From Methyloversatilis sp. (GTDB taxonomy: Bacteria; Pseudomonadota; Gammaproteobacteria; Burkholderiales; Rhodocyclaceae), in contig JAEUNO010000019.1 in the NCBI GenBank assembly GCA_016791045.1, forward strand, positions 62,001-126,000: DNA of 64,000 nucleotides, written 5' to 3'. Position 1 is the stretch's first letter. Every line of letters starts with the position of its first letter. Position numbers and translations under genes: made by a program. The notes beneath the pieces were generated by a model. That model ran no database searches, was not told where the DNA came from, and saw nothing but the letters and a program-made list of their open reading frames with translations. Positions 34,568 through 41,897 of the stretch are shown here, in pieces.

Positions 34568-35386
34568 TCAGGCGTTCCACAGCTTCCAGAGCATGCGCAC
34601 GGCCAGCGCGACCAGCAGCAGCGAAAACAGACGCTTGATCAGCGGCACCGGCAGCCGGTGTGCGGCGCGCGCGCCGAGCGGTGTCGTGAACAGGCTGCCC
34701 GCGACGATGGCGACCAGCGCCGGCAGGTGCACATAGCCCAGCACCTGCGGCGGCATGTCCGGCACGCCCCAGCCATTGAAGATGTAGCCGGCCGTGCCGC
34801 CCAGCGCGATCGGCAGGCCGAGCGCGGCCGAGGTGCCGATGGCCTGGCGGATGTCACGGTTGCACCAGGTCAGGAAGGGCACCGTCAGCGCGCCGCCGCC
34901 GATGGCAACCAGCGCCGACACCACGCCGATGCCGCCACCGGCTGCGATCAAACCGCCCGCTCCGGGCAACTGACGGGCGGGCTTCGGCTTGAAACCGATC
35001 AGCATGGTCAGTGCGACGTAGCCGATGAACACCGCGAAGATCAGCGACAGCACCTGGGTCGACACTTCGCGCGCGATGAAGGTGCCCAGCAAGGTGCCGA
35101 TCAGCACACCGATGGTCATCGTGCGCACGGTCGGCCAGTCGACGGCGCCATGCGCATGGTGGGTGCGCAGGCTGATCGCGGCCGACGCGACGATGGCCGC
35201 CATCGAGGTGCCGAGCGCCAGATGCAGGATGTGGTCGGGCGTGACGTGCAGCCGTTCGAACAGGCTGACCAGAATCGGCACCAGCAGCGCGCCGCCGCCG
35301 ATGCCCAGCAATCCGGCCAGGAAGCCGGTGACGGTGCCCAGCAGCAGGCAGGCGAGCACGAATTCGGTATCGGGGAAGAACGTCAT
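34568..35386 (-). CDS. TauE/SafE-family membrane transporter
   Basis: Membrane protein of 272 residues with about eight helices in two repeats. Each repeat has the family signature: GFLAGLLGIGGGALLVPIL near the N-terminus and VSALVAIGGGALTVPFLTW in the middle. TauE/SafE proteins export sulfite, sulfoacetate or related organic anions. ATG 35386 was chosen; the further upstream open frame is not coding-like. No sulphur-compound gene lies beside it, so the substrate is open. Confidence 0.88.
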   Translation of the reverse strand: MTFFPDTEFVLACLLLGTVTGFLAGLLGIGGGALLVPILVSLFERLHVTPDHILHLALGTSMAAIVASAAISLRTHHAHGAVDWPTVRTMTIGVLIGTLLGTFIAREVSTQVLSLIFAVFIGYVALTMLIGFKPKPARQLPGAGGLIAAGGGIGVVSALVAIGGGALTVPFLTWCNRDIRQAIGTSAALGLPIALGGTAGYIFNGWGVPDMPPQVLGYVHLPALVAIVAGSLFTTPLGARAAHRLPVPLIKRLFSLLLVALAVRMLWKLWNA

Positions 35387-35461: not shown

Positions 35462-35494
35462 CGCAGAAACAAACAGGGCACCCGCAGGTGCCCT
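35462..35494 (-). terminator. Probable terminator of the panE-like gene
   Basis: Stem CAGGGCACC/GGTGCCCTG with loop CGCA at 35472-35493. On the minus strand it is followed by a T-rich TTTGTTT run. It ends the panE-tct unit ending at 35520. Confidence 0.7.
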
Positions 35495-35519
35495 GTGATG
35501 GCAACGGCTGCGCAGCGGG

Positions 35520-36524
35520 TCAACCGGCGATGGCCAGCTTGCCGCGCTTGTCCGACAGCGTGCGCGCCAGCAGCGACACCAGCGCATAGACCGCGTCGAT
35601 GTTCGGCGTCGGGATGCCGGTGATGCGCCCCAGTTCGCGCACCGAACCGACCAGCGCCTCGAATTCGAGCGGCCGGCCGGCTTCGACGTCCTGCAGCATC
35701 GAAGTCTTGTGCGCGCCGACCGCTTCAGCCCCGGCGATGCGCTTGTCGAGCGCGATCTTGAATTCCACGCCGAGCTTTTCGCCGACCGACTGCGCCTCGC
35801 GCATCATGTTGGCCGCCAGTTCGCGGGTCAGCGGGAAGCGGCAGATGTCTTCCAGCGTGGCGTGCGTCAGTGCCGAAATCGGGTTGAAGCTCAGATTGCC
35901 CCACAGCTTCACCCACATTTCGGAGCGGATGTCCTTCGACACCGGCGACTTGAAGCCGGCGGCGATCATCGCCTGCGACAGCGCCTCGATGCGCGGCGAA
36001 CGCGAGCCGTCGAGCTCGCCCAGCGTGAAGCGATTGCCTTCGATCAGCTTGATGACGCCCGGCTCGACCAGTTCGGACGCCGGATACACCACGCTGCCGA
36101 TGACCCGCTCGACTTCGATGTTCGCGGCGACGATGCCGTCCGGGTCCACAGAAGTGACCGGCGTGCCTTCGTAGTCGCCGGCCAGCTTGTGGAAGTACCA
36201 CCACGGAATGCCGTTCTGCATCGTCACGACCATCGTGTCCGGGCCGAACAGTGCGCGCATGTCGGCCGCGACGTCCTTCACCTGATGCGCCTTGAGTGTC
36301 AGCAGGATCACGTCCTGCACGCCGGCGTCCGTCATCTTCTGCACGCCGCGGATGTCCGGCGCATGCTCGACCGTACCGTCTTCCAGCATCAGTGACATGC
36401 CCTTCGCCTGGATGGCGGCGAGGTTGGGGCCACGCGCGATGCAGGTGACTTCATTGCCGGCACGCGACAGCTTCACGGCCAGATACCCCCCGATGGCGCC
36501 CGCGCCAACGACTGCAATCTTCAT
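35520..36524 (-). CDS. 2-Dehydropantoate 2-reductase family protein (candidate oxalyl-CoA reductase, PanE2-like)
   Basis: NADPH-dependent reductase of the ApbA/PanE fold, 334 residues. The N-terminal Rossmann loop VGAGAIGGYLAVKLSRAG is followed by LLTLKAHQVKDV with the catalytic-region Lys, and TMQNGIPWWYFHKL. The C-terminal helical domain has EMWVKLWGNLSFNPISALTHAT, the conserved Lys and Asn. Biosynthetic PanE makes pantoate. Here the gene lies immediately after a Tct importer and an acyl-CoA synthetase, as PanE2 homologues do in oxalate-using methylotrophs, where the substrate is oxalyl-CoA. Specificity is inferred from context. Confidence 0.8.
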   Translation of the reverse strand: MKIAVVGAGAIGGYLAVKLSRAGNEVTCIARGPNLAAIQAKGMSLMLEDGTVEHAPDIRGVQKMTDAGVQDVILLTLKAHQVKDVAADMRALFGPDTMVVTMQNGIPWWYFHKLAGDYEGTPVTSVDPDGIVAANIEVERVIGSVVYPASELVEPGVIKLIEGNRFTLGELDGSRSPRIEALSQAMIAAGFKSPVSKDIRSEMWVKLWGNLSFNPISALTHATLEDICRFPLTRELAANMMREAQSVGEKLGVEFKIALDKRIAGAEAVGAHKTSMLQDVEAGRPLEFEALVGSVRELGRITGIPTPNIDAVYALVSLLARTLSDKRGKLAIAG

Positions 36525-36622
36525 TGTTTCATCTCCCTCGAGGACGCGGCGGCACGCCGGACACCGGTCGCGCCGCCGCCAGCCGCGCCCGGCCATCGTG
36601 CGGCGGGCGCGGCGGTTTCAGG

Positions 36623-38119
36623 TCACGCGCGGCTGCGCAGATAGTGCTTAAGCGCCGGCACGATGGGCCACAGCAGCATCACGAAGGACAGCGCCATCAG
36701 GCCGCCGACCAGCGGATTCGCCCAGAAGATCGACAGACTGCCCTGCGACAGCAGCATCGACTGGCGGAAGCTCGATTCGGCCATGTCGCCCAGCACCAGG
36801 GCGAGCACCAGCGGCGCCAGCGGATAGCGCAGCTTCTTGAACAGATAGCCGAACACGCCGAACACCAGCATCATCACCACGTCGAAGATCGAACTGTGCA
36901 CCGTGTAGGCACCGATGGCGCAGATGACGATGATGACCGGGCCGATGACCGAGAACGGGATGCGCAGGATGGCCGCCCACCACGGCACCGTCGTCAGCAC
37001 GACGATCAGGCCGACGATGTTGCCCAGATACATCGAGGCGATCAGGCCCCACACGAAGTCGGGCTTTTCGGTGAACAGCAGCGGACCGGGCTGCAGGCCC
37101 CAGATCAGCAGACCGCCCAGCAGCACGGCGGCGGTCGGCGAACCCGGAATGCCCAGCGTGAGCATCGGCAGCAGGGCCGAGGTACCGGCCGCGTGCGCCG
37201 CGGTTTCCGGTGCCACCACACCTTCGATGTTGCCCTTGCCGAACGAGTCCTTGTCCTTCGCGCCGCGACGGGCCAGGCCGTAGGCCATGAAGGAGGCCGG
37301 TGTCGCACCGCCCGGCGTGACGCCCATCCAGCAGCCGACCAGCACCGAACGGATCGAGGTTTTCCAGTAGCGAAGCAGTTCGGCCCAGGTCTTCAGCACC
37401 ACGTCGAGCTGGATCTTCGCGCTCTTGCCCTTGAATGCCAGACCTTCTTCCATGGTGAGCAGGATTTCACCGATGCCGAACAGGCCGATGACCGCGATCA
37501 GGAAGTCGAAGCCCTTCAGCAGTTCGGTCACGCCATAGGTCATGCGCAGCGTGCCGGTCACCGTATCCATGCCGACCGCGGCCAGCGCAAAGCCGAGCGC
37601 CATGACGGCCAGCGTCTTGGCCGGTGGTTCCTTGCTCATGCCGACGAAGGAGCAGAAGGTGAGCATCTGCACCGCGAACATTTCCGCCGCACCGAACTTC
37701 AGCGCGAATCGCGCCACCATGGGCGCGAGGAAGGTGATCAGCAGCACCGCGAAGAAGGCGCCGACGAAGGAGGACGTGAAGGCTGCCGTCAGTGCGGCGC
37801 CGGCACGGCCCTGCTGCGCCATCGGATAGCCGTCGAAAGTGGTTGCCACCGACCACGGCTCACCCGGAATGTTGAACAGGATCGACGTGATCGCCCCGCC
37901 GAACAGCGCGCCCCAGTAGATGCAGGACAGCATGATGATGGCCGAGGTCTGGTCCATCGAAAAGGTCAGCGGCAGCAGGATGGCGATGCCGTTGGCACCG
38001 CCCAGGCCGGGCAGCACGCCGATCAGGATGCCCAGCGTGATGCCGAGCACCATGAAGCCCAGGTTGGGCAGCGTCATGGCGACGCTGAACCCGTGCATGA
38101 GGTTGTTGAGTTCTTCCAT
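36623..38119 (-). CDS. tctA: Tripartite tricarboxylate transporter, large permease (TctA)
   Basis: Large permease of 498 residues with about twelve membrane helices. It shows the family signature GVLPGLGGANGIAILLPLTF and the central GVTPGGATPASFMAYGLARR plus ETAAHAAGTSALLPMLTLGIPGSPTAAVLLGGL, the two halves of the repeated substrate site. It partners TctB and TctC to import tricarboxylates or other carboxylates with sodium or proton gradient. It follows tctB by 30 bases. Confidence 0.95.
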   Translation of the reverse strand: MEELNNLMHGFSVAMTLPNLGFMVLGITLGILIGVLPGLGGANGIAILLPLTFSMDQTSAIIMLSCIYWGALFGGAITSILFNIPGEPWSVATTFDGYPMAQQGRAGAALTAAFTSSFVGAFFAVLLITFLAPMVARFALKFGAAEMFAVQMLTFCSFVGMSKEPPAKTLAVMALGFALAAVGMDTVTGTLRMTYGVTELLKGFDFLIAVIGLFGIGEILLTMEEGLAFKGKSAKIQLDVVLKTWAELLRYWKTSIRSVLVGCWMGVTPGGATPASFMAYGLARRGAKDKDSFGKGNIEGVVAPETAAHAAGTSALLPMLTLGIPGSPTAAVLLGGLLIWGLQPGPLLFTEKPDFVWGLIASMYLGNIVGLIVVLTTVPWWAAILRIPFSVIGPVIIVICAIGAYTVHSSIFDVVMMLVFGVFGYLFKKLRYPLAPLVLALVLGDMAESSFRQSMLLSQGSLSIFWANPLVGGLMALSFVMLLWPIVPALKHYLRSRA

Positions 38120-38149
38120 CTCGGTCTCGGAGGATCAGTTCTTGTGGTG

Positions 38150-38662
38150 TCACAGACCGAGCATCAGCTCGATCGGACCTTTGGGAAGCGGCACGAGAAA
38201 CCAGCGCTCGAACAGCAGGAAAGCGCCCAGCGGCACGCCGATCGAGGTGATCGCCGTGGCCAGCCAGCCGAATTTGCCATGCACCTTCATGAAGAAGGCG
38301 ATCAGCACAAGCGACGACAGGTAGATGCCCAGGAACACGACCGCCGCCACGTAGATGGTCAGCGGCACCAGCATCTGCATCACCGAGCGCAGTTCCGTCC
38401 AGCTGGCGAACTGCGGCTGCGCGCGCTTGAACTTCATCAGCGCGGTGATCAGGATCCATCCGCTCGACGCGAGCAGGATGCAGCCGATGTAGAACGGAAA
38501 GTAGCCGGCGCGCGGGCCTTCGCCCTCTTCCCAGCCGATGCCGACGCGGATGCTGTCGATGACCGCGATGATTCCCATGACGAACAGGAACAGCGCGACC
38601 AGTAGTTCCGGCCAGCGGTTGGACAAGCCGGCTTCAGCGGCTTCCTCGGATCGCTCCATCAC
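38150..38662 (-). CDS. tctB: Tripartite tricarboxylate transporter, small permease (TctB)
   Basis: Four-helix membrane protein of 170 residues, the small TctB subunit. The helices are near residues 20-45, 75-100, 105-130 and 133-155. It holds the transporter together with TctA. It sits between tctA and a hairpin that follows tctC. Confidence 0.88.
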   Translation of the reverse strand: MMERSEEAAEAGLSNRWPELLVALFLFVMGIIAVIDSIRVGIGWEEGEGPRAGYFPFYIGCILLASSGWILITALMKFKRAQPQFASWTELRSVMQMLVPLTIYVAAVVFLGIYLSSLVLIAFFMKVHGKFGWLATAITSIGVPLGAFLLFERWFLVPLPKGPIELMLGL

Positions 38663-38715
38663 GAATCTCCAGAATGAAAACAGGGCGCATGCATCTTTGC
38701 GGCGGGCGAATAAAT

Positions 38716-38746
38716 GAACACGGGCGGGATTGACCCGCCCGTGTTC
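38716..38746 (-). terminator. Strong hairpin between tctC and tctB (attenuator or mRNA stabiliser)
   Basis: Perfect 13-bp inverted repeat GAACACGGGCGGG/CCCGCCCGTGTTC with a 5-base loop, in the gap after tctC. On the minus strand only a short T-rich stretch follows, so it is probably not a full terminator. Such a hairpin would give more tctC mRNA than tctB-tctA mRNA, as is usual for binding proteins. Confidence 0.65.
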
Positions 38747-38765
38747 CTGACATGCTTGAGGCGGA

Positions 38766-39770
38766 TTACTTGGCGAGGAAGCCGGCGTCCTTCATCAGGC
38801 CGTAGTGCATCGCTTCCGTCTTGCCCACCCAGTCGGCGAATTCCTTGCCGCTCATGAAGGTCTGCTTGAATGCACCCTTCTTCATGAAGTCGGCCCATTC
38901 CGGTGTCTCGCGCACCTTCTTGAACAGATTGACGTAGAAGTCCACCTGCTCCTGGGTGACCCCCGGGGCGAGGAAAATGCCGCGCAGCATCAGGTATTCG
39001 ATCGGCACACCGGCGCTCTTGCAGGTCGGAATGTCGGCCCAGGACTGCGTGTCGGTCACCTTTTCGGTGTACGTCAGCTTTTCGGTGTCCATGATGCACA
39101 GCGGGCGCAGCTTGCCGCCACGCCAGTGGGCTTCGGCTTCGATCGGGTTGTTGACGGTCGAATTGACATGGCCGCCAACCAGTTGCACCGCCACGTCGCC
39201 GCCGCCCTTGAACGGCATGTAGATCATCTTCTTGCCGGTGGCCTTGTCGATCATCGCGGTGATGATCTGGTCTTCCTGCTTCGAACCGGTACCGGCCATC
39301 TTGAACGTGCTGGCCGGCTTGGCCTTGATGTCGTCGATGTATTCCTTGGCCGTCTTGTACGGCGCATCGGCATTCACCCACAGCACGAACTGGTCGAGTG
39401 CGAGCATCGCGCCCGGCGTCAGGTCACGCCAGTTGAACGGAACACCGGTCGCCAGCGGCGTGGTGAACAGGTTCGAAAGCGTGATGATGATCTTGTGCGG
39501 GTTGCCCTTGGCACCCTTCAACTCCAGAAAGCCTTCGGCACCCGCGCCGCCCGACTTGTTGACGACGACCAGCGGTTGCTCCATCAGCTTGTTCTTGGCC
39601 ACGATGCCCTGGATGAAACGGGCCATCTGGTCGGCGCCGCCACCTGTGCCGGCCGGCACGACGAACTCGACCGGCTTGGTCGGTTCCCACGCGTGTGCCG
39701 CACCGGTCAGACCGATCGCTGCAACTGCAGACACCAGGGCTCTTGCGGCCCAGTTCTTGAACTCGATCAT
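38766..39770 (-). CDS. tctC: Tripartite tricarboxylate transporter substrate-binding protein (TctC/Bug family)
   Basis: Periplasmic solute receptor of 334 residues. Signal peptide (about 1-27, ending AAHA-WEP) and the Bug-family body: VEFVVPAGTGGGADQMARFIQ with the ligand-binding GTGGGADQ loop, VNKSGGAGAEGFLELKGAKG and PFKGGGDVAVQLVGGHVN. Bug proteins bind carboxylates such as citrate, glutamate, nicotinate or oxalate-like compounds. The ligand is not determined by sequence. It is 54 bases from the acyl-CoA synthetase gene. Confidence 0.94.
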   Translation of the reverse strand: MIEFKNWAARALVSAVAAIGLTGAAHAWEPTKPVEFVVPAGTGGGADQMARFIQGIVAKNKLMEQPLVVVNKSGGAGAEGFLELKGAKGNPHKIIITLSNLFTTPLATGVPFNWRDLTPGAMLALDQFVLWVNADAPYKTAKEYIDDIKAKPASTFKMAGTGSKQEDQIITAMIDKATGKKMIYMPFKGGGDVAVQLVGGHVNSTVNNPIEAEAHWRGGKLRPLCIMDTEKLTYTEKVTDTQSWADIPTCKSAGVPIEYLMLRGIFLAPGVTQEQVDFYVNLFKKVRETPEWADFMKKGAFKQTFMSGKEFADWVGKTEAMHYGLMKDAGFLAK

Positions 39771-39824
39771 TGCACTCTCCTCAGTGGATATTGTTGATGA
39801 CAGTACTGCGGGGAAGGTCGTGGA

Positions 39825-41351
39825 TCAGACACCCAGACCCAGTTTCTGTGCCAGCCCGATGCGTTGCAGCTTGCCGGTTGCACCCTTGGGAATTTCGTCC
39901 ATGAACAGGATCTTGCGCGGCACCTTGAAGTCGGCGAGCTTCGTCGCGGCGAAAGCCTGAATGTCCTTGTCGGTTGCGCTCTGACCTTCACGCAGCACGA
40001 CGACGGCGCCGACTTCCTCGCCCAGCTTGGGATGCGGGATGCCGAAGGTCACGACCTGGGCCACTGCGGGGTGGTCCATCAGCACTTCGTCGACTTCGCG
40101 CGGCGAAATCTTTTCGCCGCCGCGGTTGATGATTTCCTTCAGACGGCCGGTCAGCGACAGATAGCCTTCGGCATCCTTGCTGCCCTGGTCACCGGTACGG
40201 AACCAGCCGTGGGTGAAGCCTTCCTTGTTCGCCTTCTCGTTGTTCTCGTAACCCGGGGTGACGTTGGCACCGCGGATGACGATTTCGCCGATCTCGCCCG
40301 CCGGCAGAATGTTGCCGTCGTCGTCCATGATTTCCACTTCGGGACCGGCGGCCAGACCGACGGCGCCCGGCTTGCGCGCGCGCGGCGGCAGCGGGTTGGA
40401 CGCCATCTGATGCGACGCCTCGGTCATGCCGTAGGCCTCGATCAGCGGTGCGCCGAACACCTCTTCCAGCTCGCGGATGACCTGCGGCGGAATCGACGAC
40501 GAGGATGAACGCAGGAAGCGCAGCGGGTTGCGGGCAATCGTTTCCTTGTTGCGTGATGCGCGCGACAGGATGGCCTGGTGCATCGTCGGCACCGCGGTGT
40601 ACCAGGTCGGATGCGCTTCATCCATCCAGGAGAAGAACTTCAGCGCATCGAAGCCCGGCGTGCAGAACACCGACGCACCGGCGGACAGCGGCGCCATGAT
40701 GCCGGCGATCAGGCCGTGGATGTGGAACAGCGGCATGATGTTCAGACCGCGGTCCTTTTCGGTGAAGGCGAGCGTCGCGCAGATGTTCTGTGCCGACGCC
40801 GACACGTTGCGCTGGGTCAGCGGAACGATTTTCGGGCGTGAGGTCGTGCCCGAGGTGTGCAGCACGAGTGCCACATCGTCCGGCTGAGCGTTGCCCGGGT
40901 GCGCCGGTGCGGACACGTCGGCTGCTTCGCGCGGCTCCAGCACGAAGTCTCCGGCGGCATCCTGCGCCACCAGATCGATGACGCGCACACCCAGCTTCTT
41001 CGCCACCTCGATGGCCGGCGACACGCTGCCGCGATCGACCACCAGCGCCTTGGCGTTCAGATCGGACAGGTAGAACTCGAATTCTTCCGCGCGATAGCCG
41101 GCGTTGAGCGGGGCGGCCGTGGCACCGGCGGCGATGCTGATGAATGCGCTGGCCATGTCCGGGCCGTTCGGCAGCACGATGGCGACGCGATCGTTGCGAC
41201 CGATGCCGAGCGCGTTCAGGCGCGCGATGGTGCGTGCCATCAGGGCACGCAGCTGACCGAAGCTCAGGTCCGAACGTGCCGGCGCGGACAGCGCGACGGA
41301 TGCATCGGCACCGGTGGAAAACAGCTCGATCAGCGTGGAAGTGGCCGACAT
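39825..41351 (-). CDS. AMP-forming acyl-CoA synthetase, oxalate-CoA ligase-like
   Basis: Adenylate-forming enzyme of 508 residues that activates a carboxylic acid with ATP and CoA. Motifs in order: P-loop HTSGTTSRPKIVPLTQ (about 170-185), YGMTEASHQM (about 310), GWFRTGDQG, GRLKEIINRGGEKISPREV and the catalytic Lys in PKGATGKLQRIG. The TTSRPK form of the P-loop is typical of the oxalate-CoA ligases AAE3 and Pcs60, more than of fatty acid ligases. Start at 41351 (MSATSTL). A TetR-like palindrome is about 145 bases upstream. Substrate remains inferred. Confidence 0.85.
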   Translation of the reverse strand: MSATSTLIELFSTGADASVALSAPARSDLSFGQLRALMARTIARLNALGIGRNDRVAIVLPNGPDMASAFISIAAGATAAPLNAGYRAEEFEFYLSDLNAKALVVDRGSVSPAIEVAKKLGVRVIDLVAQDAAGDFVLEPREAADVSAPAHPGNAQPDDVALVLHTSGTTSRPKIVPLTQRNVSASAQNICATLAFTEKDRGLNIMPLFHIHGLIAGIMAPLSAGASVFCTPGFDALKFFSWMDEAHPTWYTAVPTMHQAILSRASRNKETIARNPLRFLRSSSSSIPPQVIRELEEVFGAPLIEAYGMTEASHQMASNPLPPRARKPGAVGLAAGPEVEIMDDDGNILPAGEIGEIVIRGANVTPGYENNEKANKEGFTHGWFRTGDQGSKDAEGYLSLTGRLKEIINRGGEKISPREVDEVLMDHPAVAQVVTFGIPHPKLGEEVGAVVVLREGQSATDKDIQAFAATKLADFKVPRKILFMDEIPKGATGKLQRIGLAQKLGLGV

Positions 41352-41494: not shown

Positions 41495-41506
41495 GAACGA
41501 TCGTTC
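41495..41506. promoter_or_regulatory. Putative TetR-type operator
   Basis: Perfect 12-bp palindrome GAACGATCGTTC. Its shape is that of TetR/AcrR operators that control acyl-CoA metabolism genes. It lies about 145 bases upstream of the acyl-CoA synthetase start. No TetR gene is in the window, so the regulator would be encoded elsewhere. Confidence 0.5.
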
Positions 41507-41649: not shown

Positions 41650-41698
41650 TACCGCGCGCCCGGGGTGGTGGGCTGTCGGTAAGGGGGACCCCCGCGCA

Positions 41699-41897
41699 TG
41701 TCGCTAGGCCGGCATCCTGAACCGAGGGTTCAGAGCGGCTGCGTTCCTGCCGCATCAGGCCAGCCCGTGAAGGGCCGGCACAACAGCGGCGTCCTAGGTT
41801 CGCAACCTCATGCCAATCAACATTGGTTCAAGGAATCTATGACCTTGGCGAACACCGCAGGGGATTGATGCTCAGGGCGTTCAGCCCTGACGCGACC
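41699..41897 (-). ncRNA. ssrS: 6S RNA-like gene downstream of zapA
   Basis: 6S RNA binds the housekeeping RNA polymerase holoenzyme and lowers transcription in stationary phase. The locus begins about 5 bases after the zapA stop and runs about 190-200 bases on the minus strand. The start and end can pair (GGTCGC with GCGAC). Near the middle is a terminal hairpin GCCGGCCC-TTCA-GGGCTGGC, and near the end TGAACCCTCGGTTCAG-GATGCCGGC resembles the 3' part of known 6S RNAs (E. coli has TTGAACCAAGGGTTCAAGG). The position after zapA is the standard proteobacterial synteny. Exact ends are approximate. Confidence 0.72.

Follow-up and report, generated by a model that had tools for sequence, protein, structure and literature searches.

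We analysed a stretch of 64,000 nucleotides from Methyloversatilis sp. (contig JAEUNO010000019.1, positions 62,001 to 126,000; hereafter the window) and found in it five neighbouring genes that, judging from their sequences, very probably form one unit for the uptake of oxalate and its assimilation to glyoxylate. The genes lie co-directionally on the minus strand over about 5.8 kb (35520-41351), each as an open frame and with intergenic gaps of 30-103 bp. They encode an AMP-forming coenzyme A (CoA) ligase, the three subunits of a Tct importer and a PanE-family reductase. An earlier note on this DNA had described the same run of synthetase, complete TctC-TctB-TctA and reductase, and its limits coincide exactly with the opening base of the ligase gene and the final base of PanE. 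All three Tct subunits exceeded the Pfam cut-offs, and the TTSRPK P-loop noted in the synthetase reads HTSGTTSRPK. The genes of the unit are as follows.

39825-41351, minus strand: AMP-forming CoA ligase (P0001, 508 aa), predicted oxalyl-CoA synthetase; Pfam AMP-binding, 5.7e-76
38766-39770, minus strand: TctC periplasmic binding protein (P0002), predicted oxalate receptor; Pfam TctC, 5.4e-24
38150-38662, minus strand: TctB small membrane subunit (P0003), GTG start; Pfam TctB, 9.8e-19
36623-38119, minus strand: TctA large membrane subunit (P0004); Pfam TctA, 1.5e-150
35520-36524, minus strand: PanE-family reductase (P0005), predicted oxalyl-CoA reductase; Pfam ApbA, 1.3e-26, and ApbA_C, 4.5e-30, with tree placement

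The unit is no chance cluster, because its genes recur together in related genomes. Ligase and PanE of the unit's type were present in 12 of 13 Methyloversatilis genomes, the exception (G007) having only a second type of PanE, and the complete five-gene order was kept in all seven Methyloversatilis loci fetched as 20-kb stretches (L162-L168). Gene neighbourhoods were further compared at 82 ligase loci, namely the best 80 of 572 relatives from a genome scan plus two plasmid loci, which represent close kin and no random draw. In 74 of them, PanE was no more than 9 kb away from the ligase. In seven of the eight loci without PanE (L027, L033, L040, L056, L065, L081, L085), the contig breaks off next to the ligase or importer genes, and L093 is the sole PanE-less locus with room on its contig. 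Neither oxc nor frc was found within 9 kb of the ligase in the 82 loci.

The same neighbourhoods revealed an exchange of importers. Within 9 kb of the ligase, Tct genes were present in 35 of the 82 loci (all three genes in 33) and OxlT in 16, and the two never occurred together (Fisher p 4e-5, uncorrected for kinship). One OxlT member, the M. bullatum copy, was scanned with TIGR04259 (630 bits against a cut-off of 335) and had the solved oxalate:formate antiporter as its top Protein Data Bank (PDB) match (221 bits); the rest were called by similarity to this member. In the Methylobacterium and Methylorubrum loci (L013, L076, L079, L083, L096, L097), OxlT, an FAH-family hydrolase, PanE and the ligase stand side by side. 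An ATP-binding cassette importer precedes the ligase-PanE pair in Rhodobacteraceae SC52, and in L066 the Tct genes ahead of the ligase belong to a more distant type (TctC 39%, TctA 45% identity). That the enzymes are constant while the importer varies between Tct and OxlT is as expected if both importers bring in the same substrate.

Comparison with PDB sequences supports the assignment of the ligase as a relative of the AAE3/Pcs60 type and a predicted oxalyl-CoA synthetase. The top matches were 5ie0 (AAE3), 6qjz and 8aff (Pcs60) at 471, 442 and 385 bits, all of which are oxalate--CoA ligases; we take 5ie0 to be the Arabidopsis and 8aff the yeast enzyme. These three full-length synthetases were followed by a shorter Pcs60 chain (281 bits) and by the best other enzyme (220 bits), so that AAE3 scored 250 bits above the best non-oxalate enzyme, in agreement with the oxalate-CoA ligase-like synthetase proposed in the earlier note. 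The best paralogue in the own genome of the window (3.54 Mb, 92% complete) reached 227 bits, and the copies in a Methyloversatilis sp. bin and in M. thermotolerans 3t are 98% and 89% identical, respectively. M. thermotolerans 3t also has the unit (L021). Counting from the alignment, H210, H212 and H314 correspond to His214, His216 and His319 of AAE3, and His214 and His319 are presumably the oxalate-contacting histidines of its active site. H210, H212, R281, S282, S284, H314 and N319 were identical in 88 of 88 clade members, a set of frames of up to 620 aa with at least 80% coverage. Among 12 paralogues compared, H210 was present in nine and is not specific, H212 was present in three, and H314 in none of the 11 in which the position was visible.

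Six of the 13 Methyloversatilis genomes, that of the window not among them, encode a further AAE3-like ligase (52-55% identical). A role for it as a spare oxalate ligase was set aside, because in the two loci read for genes, L154 (G007) and L155 (G004), it adjoins giant frames that by eye resemble nonribosomal peptide synthetases.

The reductase was placed in a tree of 61 PanE rows, hand-picked for spread from 103. The window PanE fell into a clade of 33 rows consisting exclusively of ligase-linked PanEs, those of Methylobacterium and Methylorubrum included (support of 99 in the Shimodaira-Hasegawa-like approximate likelihood ratio test, SH-aLRT). A second clade of 16 rows (SH-aLRT 96) contained ten more ligase-linked and two oxc-linked PanEs, as well as four from other loci: Azospirillum, where PanE adjoins oxlT, Cupriavidus metallidurans with an Frc-like gene, Skermanella with transhydrogenase genes, and Phyllobacterium, where it lies near gcl and transhydrogenase genes. 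On a long branch, the PanE of L205, a locus with a tripartite ATP-independent periplasmic transporter, joins both oxalate-linked clades (fork 87). Outside these clades (97), likewise on long branches, stood the PanE of E. coli and four second PanEs of Methyloversatilis. The window PanE shares 51% identity with the C. metallidurans PanE and 64% with that of M. rhodesianum (L079), a genus-mate of M. extorquens AM1 that shares the 33-row clade; the PanE2 of AM1 itself lay outside the comparison. The grouping with biosynthetic PanE, which the earlier note had named as the contrary outcome, was not observed. The tree thus supports the prediction of the window PanE as an oxalyl-CoA reductase that groups with PanEs of oxalate loci, apart from E. 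coli PanE. According to published work, deletion of apbA2 in C. necator slowed growth on oxalate, ApbA2 being 51% identical to M. extorquens PanE2 (PMC7486775), and PanE/PanE2 of M. extorquens has been assayed in vitro (PMC8411744, PMC9485241).

For the importer, the ligand is suggested by genomic context. Tct systems are known as importers, and the window TctA was the only TctA found in its genome (one PF01970 match). In the order to which the host belongs, oxc was present in 74 of 399 genomes, and 20 oxc loci were hand-picked from the 74 before their content was seen. A TctA of the window type was present in 14 of these loci (56-80% identity, 13 at 72% or more), TctC only in one, and OxlT in two. 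When 150 genomes of the order were searched with the window TctA, 34 close places were found outside its own genome, of which 15 lie within 4 kb of oxc, three beside the ligase and six beside an Frc homologue, giving 24 linked to one of these genes. The Frc homologues are 47-51% identical (377-419 bits), and the sole one scanned (L184) passes TIGR03253. Together with the alternation with OxlT, these neighbourhoods led us to infer oxalate as the Tct ligand.

The receptor was further compared among relatives. The 20 window-type TctCs at oxc/frc loci are 60-74% identical to the window TctC. In an alignment of 82 of 93 TctC rows, 19 positions hardly varied among the 63 TctCs linked to the ligase, oxc or frc, and seven unlinked sisters mostly had other residues there, although the groups were partly set by a threshold of 58% identity and the signature partly reflects kinship. 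The positions include T42, A46 and Q165, which we take to lie in the ligand-loop stretches of this fold. Of the other eight unlinked rows, most carry the same signature. In a tree of 86 of the 93 rows, the long-branched unlinked group (about 50% identity) emerges from within the larger one, so that the branching order in this tree is tentative.

In L152, oxc, frc, an ADP-forming acyl-CoA ligase (L152:12981-15113) and TctC-TctB-TctA follow one another on one strand. The ADP-forming ligase inside this run might be another way to oxalyl-CoA.

None of the 13 Methyloversatilis genomes contained oxc (TIGR03254) or frc (TIGR03253) over the cut-off, as the earlier note had stated for the window; oxalate decarboxylase and similar enzymes were not searched for. 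The own genome of the window encodes two CoA transferases of the Frc Pfam family that reached 214 and 210 against a cut-off of 504. No glyoxylate carboligase was seen in this genome at its 92% completeness, where the sole TPP_enzyme_N protein found is acetolactate synthase. Since oxc and frc were detected in none of the 13 genomes and ligase with PanE in 12, the unit probably serves assimilation only, feeding glyoxylate to the serine cycle. M. universalis FAM5 expresses genes of the serine cycle and the glyoxylate shunt on methanol or methylamine, including Sga, isocitrate lyase and malate synthase (PMC5023235). A sink for glyoxylate is thus ready in a relative, although these are the genes of the relative and not those of the window's genome.

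The substrates, the direction of the reactions and the physiological use, as read from homology and context, would be as follows. TctC would capture oxalate in the periplasm, and TctA-TctB would carry it inward. The ligase would couple oxalate to CoA while converting ATP to AMP, at a cost of two phosphate bonds; this chemistry is that of the family, and oxalate is the predicted substrate. PanE, by analogy with its kin, would reduce oxalyl-CoA with NAD(P)H to glyoxylate and free CoA. The glyoxylate may then enter the serine cycle via serine-glyoxylate aminotransferase or be used via malate synthase. Because little energy would be left from oxalate without Oxc and formate oxidation, oxalate is likelier to supplement one-carbon growth, as carbon beside an energy source such as methanol, than to be the sole fuel. 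The import of oxalate, its activation without formyl-CoA transferase and its reduction to glyoxylate, as the earlier note envisaged them, are therefore in keeping with the kinship of the ligase, the PanE tree, the context of the importer and the lack of oxc and frc. With somewhat more confidence than doubt, we extend this to the proposal that this Tct subfamily provides the principal route of oxalate uptake in many aerobic bacteria of the Burkholderiales type and serves both the ligase-PanE and the Oxc-Frc routes, and that the Methyloversatilis module is assimilation-only, topping up serine-cycle glyoxylate during one-carbon growth while oxalate is not dissimilated at all.

Three other explanations were weighed. 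The unit may handle another small dicarboxylate, such as malonate, mesoxalate or tartronate, with Tct importing it, the ligase forming its CoA ester, PanE reducing the product, and oxalate being a side substrate. Many different carboxylates are carried by Tct importers, the solved relatives that come next to the ligase at about 220 bits include malonyl-CoA synthetases, and an FAH-family hydrolase, present near the ligase in 32 of the 82 loci, is hard to place in a simple route for oxalate. We nevertheless consider this unlikely in view of the 250-bit lead of AAE3, the 16 loci with OxlT near the ligase, the same Tct type beside oxc and the kin of the window PanE at oxalate loci. It is very unlikely that PanE is simply the ordinary ketopantoate reductase of the cell, in a cluster whose genes function together only in part. 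Such a role would fit the family name given by NCBIfam and the own genome and two near relatives (G008, G009), in which no PanE besides that of the unit was found; there it may serve pantothenate synthesis, or another enzyme does so. However, a second type of PanE (24-34% identical in the matched parts), a candidate for the biosynthetic role, is present in ten of the 13 Methyloversatilis genomes, including G007, which lacks the unit, and G004 carries both types, its unit-type PanE being 100% identical to that of the window. The proximity of PanE to the ligase in 74 of the 82 loci, and the position of E. coli PanE and the four second PanEs outside its clade, also disagree with a purely biosynthetic function.

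The enzymes might also run in reverse, with surplus glyoxylate being oxidised to oxalyl-CoA and discarded as oxalate, an explanation that we hardly credit. Glyoxylate has served as an assay substrate for the PanE of M. extorquens, which was described as reversible (PMC9485241), and ApbA2 of C. necator is believed to work in this direction, as a minor route on glycolate (PMC7486775). But the ligase would need to run backwards, and no Oxc over the cut-off is present to draw oxalyl-CoA onward. The inward transport known for Tct systems likewise argues against disposal. Uptake and assimilation of oxalate are thus favoured over these explanations.

Several observations weigh against this assignment of oxalate. 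NCBIfam gave the ligase no name over a cut-off, the best being FadD7 (426 against 650), and it places the window PanE in a subfamily of 2-dehydropantoate 2-reductase (NF005089, 462 bits against a cut-off of 223). The unit's PanE being the only one found in three genomes, and the limit on the search for oxalate-degrading enzymes, both given above, belong here as well. Neither Tct nor OxlT was found near the ligase in 31 of the 82 loci, roughly one in three of them on truncated contigs, and most of the Tct loci are betaproteobacterial, so the counts are not independent. Three of the 20 oxc loci contained neither a window-type Tct nor OxlT. Ten of the 34 close TctA places lie beside no oxalate gene, some of them at contig ends; there TctC is 50-51% identical in four and 59-70% in five, and out of view in one. 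Two kin of the window TctA, moreover, have no known oxalate gene nearby: a copy in Azospirillum brasilense (77%) and one in a Sinorhizobium operon that includes pdxA and genes for dihydroxyacetone kinase (62%). Because of these two copies, identity of TctA alone was ruled out as an oxalate marker; TctC sorts better, though not fully.

The closest known counterpart is the route of M. extorquens AM1. A study by Schneider in 2012 reportedly described oxalyl-CoA reduction by PanE2 there and also used an oxalyl-CoA synthetase mutant, and oxc and frc are said to supply energy in this strain. The predicted pathway is alike in the activation of oxalate with CoA, its reduction to glyoxylate by a PanE-family enzyme and entry into the serine cycle; it differs in the importer, which is OxlT-like in AM1 and Tct here, and in the lack of oxc and frc over the cut-off in the 13 genomes. 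The M. extorquens reduction route is cited in PMC7486775 and PMC9485241. Plant AAE3 and yeast Pcs60/Fat2, both oxalate--CoA ligases, are the closest solved relatives of the ligase, whose three histidines align with those of AAE3, whereas in plants oxalyl-CoA passes to a decarboxylase (PMC8004701, PMC6994688) and here a reductase is encoded. Yeast engineered with FAT2 and panE2 contains the same two-enzyme chain from oxalate to glyoxylate (PMC12686821, PMC10127448), but that chain is synthetic and acts on oxalate made inside the cell, whereas the present unit is natural and includes an importer. Oxc-Frc oxalotrophy operons share the oxalyl-CoA intermediate, and oxc is frequently accompanied by the same Tct type in genomes of the Burkholderiales type; in those operons CoA is transferred from formyl-CoA and oxalyl-CoA is decarboxylated, and here neither gene exceeded the cut-off. 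With TctABC tricarboxylate transporters in general, the importer shares all three subunits and the binding protein in first place, and it differs in its predicted ligand, oxalate.

The chemistry of ligase plus reductase is thus not new, as it is known in M. extorquens and has been built in yeast (PMC12686821). For the Tct-type oxalate importer, which the earlier note thought new in such a unit, no claim of a Tct-family oxalate carrier was found in the excerpts of open-licence PMC literature, where oxalate is listed once, among the conceivable ligands of Tct receptors (PMC2864759). The same excerpts gave no data on growth of Methyloversatilis on oxalate. New would be a Tct-family oxalate importer, found beside oxc-frc too, and the use of oxalate without Oxc and Frc. 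According to a 2023 survey, oxlT is presumed to mediate oxalate uptake in aerobic bacteria but was known from just two aerobic strains (PMC10192776). Uptake of oxalate by aerobic bacteria is poorly known, and a Tct type beside the enzymes of two oxalate routes is a concrete candidate. Genome surveys could then detect oxalate users that lack the four markers oxdC, oxc, frc and oxlT. Oxalate is a common acid of plants and fungi, which the unit would tie to methylotrophs.

Other features in and around the unit are listed below.

38716-38746, minus strand: 13-pair hairpin in the TctC-TctB gap; pattern match
35473-35496, minus strand: 10-pair terminator-like hairpin 3' of PanE; pattern match
41495-41506, no strand: 12-bp palindrome GAACGATCGTTC on the upstream side of the ligase, a weak candidate for an operator; kept in 4 of 10 Methyloversatilis upstream regions
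41685-41866, minus strand: 6S RNA gene upstream of the ligase, a flanking landmark outside the unit; Rfam RF00013, 50.2 bits against a cut-off of 46.4
34568-35386, minus strand: TauE/SafE-family membrane protein, neighbour downstream of PanE; Pfam TauE, 7.3e-54

The scan for terminator-like hairpins gave four sites against a mean of 4.2 in shuffled sequences, so the hairpin class shows no excess over chance. The 13-pair hairpin is a possible attenuator that would let TctC outnumber the membrane subunits, and the 10-pair hairpin after PanE is the probable end of the five-gene unit. As an operator, the palindrome was rejected, because the four upstream regions that keep it are those of the window and three near relatives.

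The TauE/SafE gene is probably not part of the oxalate unit. It tends to occur together with ZapA-like or EVE-like genes, and the 10-pair hairpin lies between it and PanE; among 83 loci, a ZapA-like or EVE-like gene, named by eye, was present in 12 of 18 with TauE/SafE and in three of 65 without. Its membership was rejected on these grounds, though it is not disproven. The oxalate locus of Azospirillum likewise has a TauE/SafE gene, between oxlT and PanE.

Further genes were observed near relatives of the unit. The FAH-family hydrolase found within 9 kb of the ligase (e.g. L013:8137-8910), whose role in oxalate use is unexplained, was also seen close to oxc at L134, L135 and L137, three of the 20 oxc loci, and behind PanE and transhydrogenase genes in Phyllobacterium (L206:10320-11093). 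A thiamine pyrophosphate enzyme resembling acetolactate synthase or 2-hydroxyacyl-CoA lyase, below the cut-offs, occurs together with an Frc homologue in L016, in the vicinity of PanE and a ligase subunit of the SucC type, and in L184, near Tct genes and with the Frc homologue that passes TIGR03253. A TerC-family gene is present near a Tct or PanE gene in L171 (9625-10329, annotated), L184 (13049-13774) and L016 (6008-6766), the latter two recognised by eye, and is perhaps linked to the metal binding of oxalate.

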